Origin: Chthoniobacterales bacterium
GTDB lineage: Bacteria; Verrucomicrobiota; Verrucomicrobiia; Chthoniobacterales; JACTMZ01
Direction: 5' to 3'
Assembly (NCBI GenBank): GCA_018883245.1
Contig: VEQL01000004.1
Coordinates: 1 to 64,000, forward strand
Length of the DNA: 64,000 nucleotides
The translations under genes and the position numbers were made by a program. The notes below the pieces were generated by a model. The model did no database searches, was not told the origin of the DNA, and saw only the letters and a list, made by a program, of their open reading frames with translations. Of this stretch, positions 6,841 through 33,869 are shown piece by piece. How positions within the stretch are numbered: the stretch's first letter is position 1; each line of letters begins with the position of its first letter.

Positions 6841-7092
6841 TTACGGCTTGACGTCATTTGCAGGGGCAAGACTTGCACCCGCACGAGTCCCAAAAATGTG
6901 GAGGAATCCGGCAACTTTGGCAACGCGAAACGAAACGGAAGACGCGGGGAAATAGCGCTTTCCTATCGAGGAGAAACGGCGTTGAAAGTTCTTGAGCGTG
7001 GCCGAGGCGCGCTGATTTTTCGTCTTGAGGAATGCGATGAATTCTTCGCTGATTTTTTGGGCATCCGTAGGTAGAGTGACAGGGTGTTTCAC
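6841..7092 (-). CDS. doubtful small ORF in the pdhA-cdd gap
   Basis: The gap from 6820 to 7144 separates divergent pdhA and cdd. Its only coding candidate is this 83-residue GTG frame, starting VKHPVTLPTDAQKISEEFIA and including a basic stretch (LKNFQRRFSSIGKRYF). The middle codons look coding-like, but there is no ribosome binding site, no recognised family, and the frame ends 21 bases before the pdhA start. It may be spurious. Promoters for pdhA and cdd must also lie here; I could not pick confident boxes. Confidence 0.25.
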   Translation of the reverse strand: MKHPVTLPTDAQKISEEFIAFLKTKNQRASATLKNFQRRFSSIGKRYFPASSVSFRVAKVAGFLHIFGTRAGASLAPANDVKP

Positions 7093-7144
7093 TGCTGATG
7101 AATTTCGGAAATTTCCTGGCGGATCTGGAGGGCGAGATGGCTCC

Positions 7145-7570
7145 ATGAGCACAAATGACAAAAAACGCATGCAAACATCTGACCAAGAACTAGTTGCGAA
7201 AGCTATCAGCGCTTCGAAAGCCGCTTATGCCCCCTACTCCGGATTTCAAGTCGGCGCGGTGCTTGTGGGAAGCGATGGCCACATTTTCACCGGGTGCAAT
7301 GTGGAGAATATCAGCTATGGATTGACGATCTGTGCCGAGCGAAACGCGGTCTTCGCAGCGGTGGCGGATGGTTGCCGGGACTTCTCCAAGATTGTGGTGG
7401 TGGCGGACACCGACGAACCGATTTCGCCCTGCGGGGCCTGCCGTCAAGTGCTGGCCGAATTCAATCCCGATTTGGAAATCGTGCTGGCGAACTTCAAGGG
7501 CAGGATTGAGCGCTTTCGTTTATCCGCGCTGCTCCCCCGCCCTTCCAAAGGCATATTGGGACATGCTTAA
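7145..7570 (+). CDS. cdd: cytidine deaminase
   Basis: This 141-residue enzyme deaminates cytidine and deoxycytidine to uridines for pyrimidine salvage. It has the small homotetrameric-type Cdd pattern: AAYAPYSGFQVGAVLVGSDG, then FTGCNVENISYGLTICAERN with the zinc Cys and catalytic Glu, and DEPISPCGACRQVLAEF with the other two zinc cysteines. The ATG at 7145 (MSTNDKKRMQ) is preferred; the frame runs 40 codons further upstream without family similarity. It ends one base before a parS-like palindrome and 24 bases before mnmG, so the two may be co-transcribed. Confidence 0.93.
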   Translation: MSTNDKKRMQTSDQELVAKAISASKAAYAPYSGFQVGAVLVGSDGHIFTGCNVENISYGLTICAERNAVFAAVADGCRDFSKIVVVADTDEPISPCGACRQVLAEFNPDLEIVLANFKGRIERFRLSALLPRPSKGILGHA

Positions 7571-7571
7571 C

Positions 7572-7585
7572 GTTCCACGTGGAAC
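7572..7585. promoter_or_regulatory. parS-like centromere site 1
   Basis: A perfect 14-base palindrome GTTCCACGTGGAAC lies in the 24-base cdd-mnmG gap. It matches the bacterial chromosomal parS core, TGTTYCACGTGRAACA, in the inner 14 positions (flanks here are C and A). ParB would bind this site and spread to load SMC/condensin. Two further copies lie in mnmG and none elsewhere in the window. It sits where the mnmG ribosome binding site would be expected. Confidence 0.8.
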
Positions 7586-7594
7586 ACCAACTCT

Positions 7595-9490
7595 ATGGCG
7601 AGCATTTATGAATACCCCGATGTCTTCGACGTGTTGGTCTTGGGTGCTGGCCATGCGGGTGTCGAGGCGGGCTTGGCTGCCGCGCGCTTGGGGGCAAAGA
7701 CCGGCATACTAACCCAGAATCTTGATACGATCGGGCAGATGTCGTGCAATCCGGCCATTGGCGGTCTGGCCAAAGGCCACATGGTCCGCGAGATCGATGC
7801 CTTGGGGGGTGTGATGGCTCAAAATACGGATGCCACGGGCATCCAGTTCCGCATGCTCAACGCGAGGAAGGGTCCGAGCGTCCAAGCGCCCAGGGCGCAG
7901 TGCGACAAGAAGGCATACCAGTTTCGCTTGAAGTGGGTCCTTGAACACTCCCCCAACCTGCATCTGCTCCAAGGCAATGCGGTGCGAATCCTCGTCGAGG
8001 ACGACTGCGTGACCGGGGTCGAAACGAACCTCGGCCTCCGCTATCGCGCCAAGACAGTGGTTGTGACTACCGGGACATTCATGCGCGGGCTGCTCCATGT
8101 GGGACTCCAGCAAACGACGGGCGGGCGCATGGGCGATGCAGTTTCGACGCTGAGCGACTCCTTGCGCGAGATCGGCTTGGCCACGGAACGGTTCAAGACT
8201 GGAACACCTTGCCGTATCCTCGGGCGGACCATCGATTTTTCCAAATGTCAGCGTCAAGATGGCGACGAGCCGCCGCCGACATTCGGTTTTTATCCCGAAG
8301 AGTTGGGCGATGAACCGGGCAATCCTTTCACATTGAACCGTTGGAAGGACGGGATGTTCCATGTGGAACAATTGCCATGCTGGATCACTTACACCAACGA
8401 GCGAACGCATGACCTGATCCGCACCAACCTCGACAAATCACCAATGTATGCGGGCATCATCGAGGGTGTTGGGCCGCGGTATTGTCCGTCGATCGAGGAC
8501 AAGGTCGTGCGGTTCGCCGACAAAGAGCGGCACCAACTTTTCTTGGAACCGGAAGGTCGGCAAACCGGCGAATACTATGTCAACGGCGTTTCCACGAGCC
8601 TGCCTTTCGAGGTCCAGTTGGCGTTCATACGCTCCGTTCCGGGGCTGGAAAACGCCCACATTCTGCGCGCCGGCTATGCGGTGGAGTATGACTATTGTCC
8701 GCCGACCCAGCTTCAGCGAACGCTCGAAACCAAGGCGGTTGGGGGGCTCTATTTGGCAGGACAAATCAACGGCACATCGGGCTATGAGGAAGCTGCGGCC
8801 CAAGGTTTGGTGGCGGGGGCAAATGCCGCGCTGAAATTGGACGGCAAAGCGCCGTTCCACGTGGAACGCTCCGAGGGCTACATCGGGGTTTTGATCGATG
8901 ATTTGGTCACGCGCGGCACCCAAGAGCCTTATCGGATGTTCACGAGTCGGGCCGAGTTCCGTCTCCTGCTTAGGCAGGACAATGCGGACCTTCGTCTCGC
9001 TGGAAAGGCGAGGGGAGCGGGCCTTATTTCGGCGGATCGGTATGCAAAGACCGAGGACAAGGCCAACGCGGTTGAAAATTTGAAAAACAAATTACAAGTT
9101 CTTCGCCACGAAGATATTACAATTTTCCAATGGATACGACGTCCGGAAAATTTCGTATCCGCCTTACCCGAAGATCTGCGCGCTCTGGCGCCGGAGAATA
9201 TTTGGACACTTGTCGAAACGGACCTCAAATATGAAGGGTATATCCGTCGCGAACTGGATTCTGTCGCGCGGCAGAAAAGGCAGGAGGAACAGGCGTTGCC
9301 GTCCGATTTGGACTATGCGTCCATTCCCGGGCTGCGCAACGAATCGCGGCAAAAATTTGCCGAACTTCGTCCGGCGACGCTCGGCCAAGCATCGCGCATC
9401 AGTGGCGTGACTCCGGCGGACATCGCGCTGTTGTCCGTCTGGCTGCGCAAGCAGCGGGGAGGGGAGGCAGCAACACGCTTGATGGCGTAG
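7595..9490 (+). CDS. mnmG: tRNA uridine 5-carboxymethylaminomethyl modification enzyme MnmG (GidA)
   Basis: This 631-residue FAD enzyme works with MnmE to make cmnm5U34 in the wobble position of several tRNAs. It begins with the FAD dinucleotide fold [20 protein letters not shown], followed by [40 protein letters not shown] and [12 protein letters not shown]. The C-terminal part carries [20 protein letters not shown]. The length is full. mnmG often lies beside the replication origin and parAB in other bacteria; parA and parB are not in this window, but two parS-like sites sit within the gene. No Shine-Dalgarno is evident before the ATG. Confidence 0.95.
8355..8370. promoter_or_regulatory. parS-like site 2, inside mnmG
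   Basis: The 16-mer TGTTCCATGTGGAACA matches the parS consensus in both flanks and differs from a perfect palindrome only at one central position (ATGT for ACGT). It encodes MFHVEQ just before the conserved [12 protein letters not shown] block of MnmG, a stretch that varies between species. Confidence 0.7.
8854..8867. promoter_or_regulatory. parS-like site 3, inside mnmG
   Basis: A second perfect GTTCCACGTGGAAC lies in mnmG about 500 bases beyond site 2. It encodes PFHVER just ahead of the conserved [12 protein letters not shown] block, again in a variable part of the protein. Confidence 0.8.
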
Positions 9491-33289: not shown

Positions 33290-33557
33290 GACCTGCATCA
33301 AGGATACCAGCGGCAGGGTGCGGGAGACAACGGAAGACCTCCCGCCTGATATTCACAACGATGATTGTTTTGATTTTCTGGAAACCGAAACAAGAACACA
33401 GCAATAAGCCGGCGAACAACTGCTTGTTCCCCGCATAACCATCGCAGCGTCAGGTGTTCCCCGCGACAAAAGCTATGTGAATGAATCGGAAGAATGCCCG
33501 CACAAGTGGCGGCTGTGACTACGTTGTCCACAAGACACACATGTTTTTCACAAACAG

Positions 33558-33869
33558 TTGGGCCGAGAATGCGACAGCGATGTGAACAAGATTGGTCCTT
33601 GGTGTCCGCAATGCTTGATCCGGCGCCGTCGCAAAGTTAGAAAAGCGCCCGTGCAACCTGCCTATCCACGAAACGCCATCCGCGGCCTCATCATCGCTGC
33701 CATTCTTCTCGGTTTTGCGGGGGGAGTCGCGATCACCCTCGCAGGAGCGATCGCCGTCACGCAAGCTTCCATCCTTGTGAGCTGGCTGCCCGTGGTCCTG
33801 ATCGCTGTCTTCCTTGGCATCACCATGGTCCTTCTGCAAAGGGACGCCAGCCGCCGCGGCGGCAAGTAA
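33558..33869 (+). CDS. small two-helix membrane protein
   Basis: This frame of up to 103 residues opens at TTG with a possible GTG at 33582; no ATG is available. After a Cys-containing basic N-terminus (GPWCPQCLIRRRRKVRK) there are two clear membrane helices, AIRGLIIAAILLGFAGGVAI and VSWLPVVLIAVFLGITMVLL, and a short basic end. The function is unknown. The hydrophobic pattern supports a real protein, but the weak start codon lowers confidence. The 268 bases between 33289 and this ORF hold no other gene that I can support. Confidence 0.45.
   Translation: MGRECDSDVNKIGPWCPQCLIRRRRKVRKAPVQPAYPRNAIRGLIIAAILLGFAGGVAITLAGAIAVTQASILVSWLPVVLIAVFLGITMVLLQRDASRRGGK

Follow-up and report, generated by a model that had tools for sequence, protein, structure and literature searches.

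In Pseudomonas aeruginosa, the sites parS2 and parS3 both read TGTTCCACGTGGAACA, and some of the parS sites of this species are intragenic (PMC4368675). In Akkermansia muciniphila, the origin of replication was placed with the help of a cluster of parS sites and of the GC skew, and it is not always found at dnaA (PMC10197239); in Methylacidiphilum infernorum V4, the GC skew places the origin 250 nt upstream of dnaA (PMC2474590).

The stretch of DNA analysed here (the window, 64,000 nucleotides) forms the beginning of contig C4 in a draft genome of 2.9 Mb in 84 contigs, whose nearest named relatives are MAGs of Chthoniobacterales (Verrucomicrobiota), with at most 88% identity of the MnmG protein. 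We searched the window for the 16-mer TGTTCCACGTGGAACA, allowing three mismatches at most, and found three occurrences, at 7571, 8355 and 8853 (Table 1); dinucleotide shuffles of the window contain a mean of 0.25 matches, with fewer than three in each of 100. The initial annotation had described these palindromes as two perfect 14-mers (7572, 8854) and a 16-mer with one change (8355), with no other copy in 64 kb. The pattern search returned exactly this, and the statement extends to the whole genome, where the only sites with at most two mismatches are these three, all of them within 1.3 kb. With three mismatches, ten more places are found genome-wide, which we take as background because a reversed control pattern matches as often (13 matches). 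Copies scattered over the genome, or the lack of a parB gene, had been named as what would contradict a parS motif; the scan found clustered sites and no scatter, and a parB gene is present.

Table 1. Features of the window discussed in the text, with coordinates counted from its first nucleotide.
Feature	Sequence	Position	Strand	Location and evidence
cdd, cytidine deaminase		7025..7570	+	upstream of site 1; PF00383, E=3.3e-21
Putative parS site 1	CGTTCCACGTGGAACA	7571..7586	.	14-mer core 7572-7585; in the gap between the cdd stop (7570) and the mnmG start (ATG at 7595)
mnmG (gidA)		7595..9490	+	tRNA uridine-5-carboxymethylaminomethyl(34) synthesis enzyme; Pfam GIDA, E=4.7e-158; TIGR00136, 792 bits, above cut-off
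Putative parS site 2	TGTTCCATGTGGAACA	8355..8370	.	inside mnmG; codons M-F-H-V-E-Q, residues 254-259
Putative parS site 3	CGTTCCACGTGGAACG	8853..8868	.	inside mnmG; codons P-F-H-V-E-R, FHVE being residues 421-424
Candidate oriC		33302..33670	.	intergenic; 51% G+C against 62%; corresponds by homology to the place of the skew switch in two congeners
DnaA-box-like 9-mers in candidate oriC		33476, 33524, 33544, 33581	-, +, +, -

Site 1 overlaps the translation-initiation region of mnmG, and sites 2 and 3 are both in frame, reading F-H-V-E. Site 2 is the intragenic site conserved throughout the class, while site 3 is a genus-level site, at a fixed distance of 498 bp from site 2. A ParABS chromosome partition system has a parS palindrome matching TGTTNCACGTGNAACA, which is what we find here, and few, clustered, origin-proximal sites, which is also the case, the position of the origin being given by the skew in relatives and, for the present genome, by a candidate oriC identified through homology.

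The proteins of such a system are encoded in the genome. ParB (296 aa, contig C3) aligns over residues 1-239 to Caulobacter ParB (6t1f) with E=1.4e-54; it has the CTP-binding motif GERRWRA, and carries Arg173 and Gly201, the ParB-type residues at two positions by which ParB and Noc are reported to differ (PMC7383237). A Walker-type ParA (Soj) of 290 aa with KGGVGKTTT is matched at C9:27822-28349 (E=1.9e-56), where its gene adjoins a pyrE-like gene and not parB. The expectation that mnmG would lie beside parAB thus fails here: the parA-parB operon next to parS, usual in ParABS systems though not obligatory, is replaced by parA on C9, parB on C3 and the sites on C4, with dnaA likewise unlinked to the sites on the contigs. 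In complete relatives too, parA, parB and dnaA are mostly scattered, parA and parB being usually far from mnmG. The examined flanks of parA, parB and dnaA contain no parS-like word with up to three mismatches. A second ParB-like match, weak (25 bits, under the cut-off), lies on a small contig which is possibly a plasmid or a phage (G000:C76:305-607).

One could also attribute the sites to Noc, the protein of nucleoid occlusion, since the best NCBIfam match of our ParB is TIGR04285 (nucleoid_noc). However, this match stays far below the cut-off (236 against 315 bits) and the protein has Arg173 and Gly201 in place of Gln and Arg. Sites of Noc are a different word from parS and are scattered, whereas those reported here are clustered. 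We consider this attribution very improbable. The three palindromes are very likely chromosomal parS sites, forming a ParABS centromere which is embedded in mnmG and whose trans-acting genes are dispersed. That they are recognised by ParB, as first proposed, is strongly supported by their identity with parS2 and parS3 of P. aeruginosa, by the presence of a canonical ParB and of a ParA, by their clustering and by their loss together with ParB, described below.

The same triplet of sites is found at the same spacing in 8 of 10 congeners (498 bp within the intragenic pair, about 775-802 bp from the upstream site); of the remaining two, one has only one site, close to the end of a contig, and the other none. 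Among wider relatives, sites are present at 69 of 80 mnmG loci, nearly always an upstream site (-14 to -169) accompanied by a site near +755. The peptide patterns used to collect these 80 loci include one containing FHV, and hence we also took an unbiased sample by HMM, in which a site lies inside mnmG in 26 of 29 other relatives. Most other Verrucomicrobiae examined have the mid-gene site and many have the upstream site as well, and additional sites near +572 or +1583 of mnmG, again in the FHVE frame, occur in other lineages. Perfect sites are also found in families of the phylum outside the class, often grouped by two or three at distances of 33-70 bp (for example G134:C19:14279, G173:C58:9584 and G097:C72:127323).

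Sites 2 and 3 lie in coding sequence, and of 112 in-gene sites 110 are translated as FHVE or a near variant, so that the palindrome might be thought a mere by-product of a conserved FHVE motif of the MnmG protein. We examined this with a codon alignment in which 110 genes were reduced to 76 representatives sharing less than 80% nucleotide identity, 64 of which have FH-E at the mid-gene site. The glutamate is encoded by GAA in 64 of these 64, the phenylalanine by TTC in 63 of 64, the valine, where present, by GTG in 58 of 59, and the histidine by CAC in 52 of 64 (the rest being CAT). When the 276 conserved columns are ordered by synonymous conservation, these four codons take ranks 1, 2, 3 and 6, the GAA, TTC and GTG columns being the top three; the medians are 0.58 for Glu columns and 0.46 for Val columns. 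Codon choice is fixed here far beyond that of any other conserved residue; selection acts on the DNA word and not on the protein. In lineages that lack the site, the residues are mostly F/L-H-A-R, encoded with a free choice of codons; an exact copy lies in non-coding DNA upstream of mnmG; and FHVE is found a second time in MnmG, at unrelated positions (residue 421 here, about +572 and about +1583 in others). All this leaves practically no likelihood to the by-product explanation: selection on the mid-gene site is at the level of the DNA, and protein constraint cannot explain its codon pattern. The codon of Q259 (8369-8371 of the window), of which only the first two bases belong to the 16-mer, is CAA in 58 of the 64 representatives, and the recognised word may be longer on this side.

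The presence of the site follows that of ParB. Of 22 complete chromosomes from the class, 20 encode a ParB scoring over the cut-off, and every one of these 20 carries one or more sites in mnmG. The other two genomes (about 0.9 Mb, same order) lack ParB, DnaA and the Soj-type ParA; they have kept mnmG without intact sites, and their only match with one mismatch is far from it. One of them keeps a decayed word, GTTTCACGTGAAGC (FHVK), at the mid-gene position, while G231, a genome of 2.5 Mb of the same genus group, has both ParB and sites. Family f4, of the same order, presents another situation: ParB is present and mnmG has no site. Perfect 16-mers are found elsewhere in 3 of 5 f4 genomes, near a folE2-like gene (G236:C51) and near a TrmL-like methyltransferase gene (G237:C11), both named by eye from their translations. 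Since ParB is kept, the sites of mnmG are absent and perfect 16-mers stand elsewhere, the centromere seems to have moved to new loci in this family.

We sampled the GC skew in four complete genomes, by samples of 20 kb every 45-400 kb. The minimum lies at 960 kb in G123, 3 kb from parS (957 kb) and 958 kb from dnaA (2 kb); at 4.24 Mb in G028, 2 kb from parS (4.237 Mb) and 1947 kb from dnaA (2.29 Mb); and at 2.09 Mb in G098, 65 kb from parS (2.155 Mb) and 2089 kb from dnaA (0 Mb), which is near the skew maximum. In G109, where the skew is weak and the sampling coarse, the minimum at about 1.7 Mb is 634 kb (11%) away from parS (1.09 Mb) and 1719 kb away from dnaA. In three of the four genomes, then, the skew minimum is within 0.1-1.4% of the genome length from mnmG, and dnaA is 36-45% away. 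This supports the conclusion that parS follows the replication origin and not dnaA. At a finer scale, the skew of G123 changes sign at most 2 kb from the 3' end of mnmG, beside a cluster of DnaA boxes and an A+T-rich stretch at about 958.6 kb, and in two congeners the sign change and a DnaA-box cluster stand about 10 kb upstream of mnmG. On contigs G004:C12 (85-110 kb) and G009:C1 (54-80 kb), one can notice an island of about 25 kb with a strong positive skew (+0.2), which has a sharp edge at the candidate oriC and extends over mnmG; outside the island, the skew of these contigs is near zero.

Our own contig C4 has a weak GC skew, and the window is rearranged: relative to G004:C12 and G009:C1, it is collinear at 2.9-9.5 kb, and inverted and in another order at 9.6-29 kb and 30-64 kb, by a real inversion or by misassembly. 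For these two reasons we located oriC by homology. The homologue of the congener skew switch falls at about 33.3-33.9 kb, and the predicted candidate oriC, at about 33.5 kb, would be about 25 kb from parS here against about 9-10 kb in congeners, the greater distance being due to the rearrangement of the window. All TTGTNCACA words of a contig stretch fall in one intergenic region, the totals being 2 in the window, 4 in G009 and 2 in G004. Matches to the classical DnaA box TTATCCACA at one mismatch form no cluster in the window, whereas those to the form TTGTYCACA do. In the congeners, the candidate oriC (about 86.17-86.25 kb of G004:C12, about 55.28-55.35 kb of G009:C1) contains inverted half-parS words, GTTCCACG and CGTGGAAC, about 65 bp apart; this pair is absent from the window. 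The skew of the relatives and the candidate oriC of the window thus both support the early suggestion that the window is near oriC.

Site 1 lies about 10 bp before the ATG of mnmG and would cover the ribosome-binding region, which might suggest another function, that of an operator through which mnmG would be regulated, by ParB itself or by some transcription factor, without any role in segregation. The LexA box of Verrucomicrobia, said to have been described in 2016 by Erill et al. as TGTTC-N4-GAACA, reportedly has an arm of the same TGTTC type. However, the word equals known ParB sites, no copy stands at other genes of the genome, two of the sites are deep in coding sequence, and the loss of sites accompanies that of ParB. 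The LexA (SOS) operator in particular does not fit, the arms being here 6 bases apart around a fixed CACGTG core against the 4 of the LexA box, and at mnmG only rather than upstream of SOS genes. We hold an operator to be very unlikely, local repression of mnmG by ParB being possible as a side effect.

With the palindromes read as parS, they are very probably the loading place of ParB. By analogy with the ParABS family, CTP-bound ParB encoded on C3 would load at the sites, including the word GTTCCACGTGGAAC, and would spread over the mnmG region; ParA encoded on C9 would then move the ParB complex, and SMC would probably be recruited at the sites. As mnmG stays beside the replication origin in the class, the DNA captured would be that which is replicated first, and the two coding sites would force the peptide FHVE into MnmG. 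The sites are apparently kept in or next to mnmG because this gene remains a mark of the origin also in genomes from whose origin dnaA, parA and parB have departed. More generally, it is likely that the centromere is a heritable part of mnmG in the class Verrucomicrobiae: it would occupy an orthologous position across families, dictate amino acids of MnmG and be, together with oriC, the fixed point of a chromosome in which dnaA, parA and parB wander; it would decay when ParB is lost and would have jumped to new loci in one family.

This has practical consequences. The gene dnaA, with which genome records start, is often not at the origin in this phylum, and the mnmG/parS locus is a better marker of it in genomes and metagenomes; estimates of growth rate from coverage depend on such a marker. 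The locus further provides a clear example from nature of a DNA-binding site that prevails over the choice of codons and amino acids in a conserved enzyme, and the independent cases of loss, decay and relocation allow tests of centromere evolution.

The kind of element is already known, as both the parS word and intragenic parS sites exist in P. aeruginosa. In the literature searched, what appears to be new is a centromere that is intragenic and orthologous across a whole class, its effect on the sequence of MnmG, and the pattern of co-loss and relocation. Our system resembles the ParABS system of P. aeruginosa (parS1-4) by the identical 16-mer and by few clustered sites close to the origin, some of them intragenic; it differs in that the main sites of P. 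aeruginosa are near oriC and the par genes, whereas here they are in or beside mnmG, with parA, parB and dnaA elsewhere. It resembles the parS/ori arrangement of Akkermansia muciniphila, a member of the same phylum; unlike that paper (PMC10197239), in which mnmG is mentioned 0 times, we describe the host gene, the intragenic position and the conservation throughout the class. Family f7, which we infer to be the Methylacidiphilum family (compare Methylacidiphilum infernorum V4), has dnaA, parB and the mnmG site all within roughly 100 kb, whereas in the other families sampled dnaA has left the skew origin and the mnmG sites remain there.
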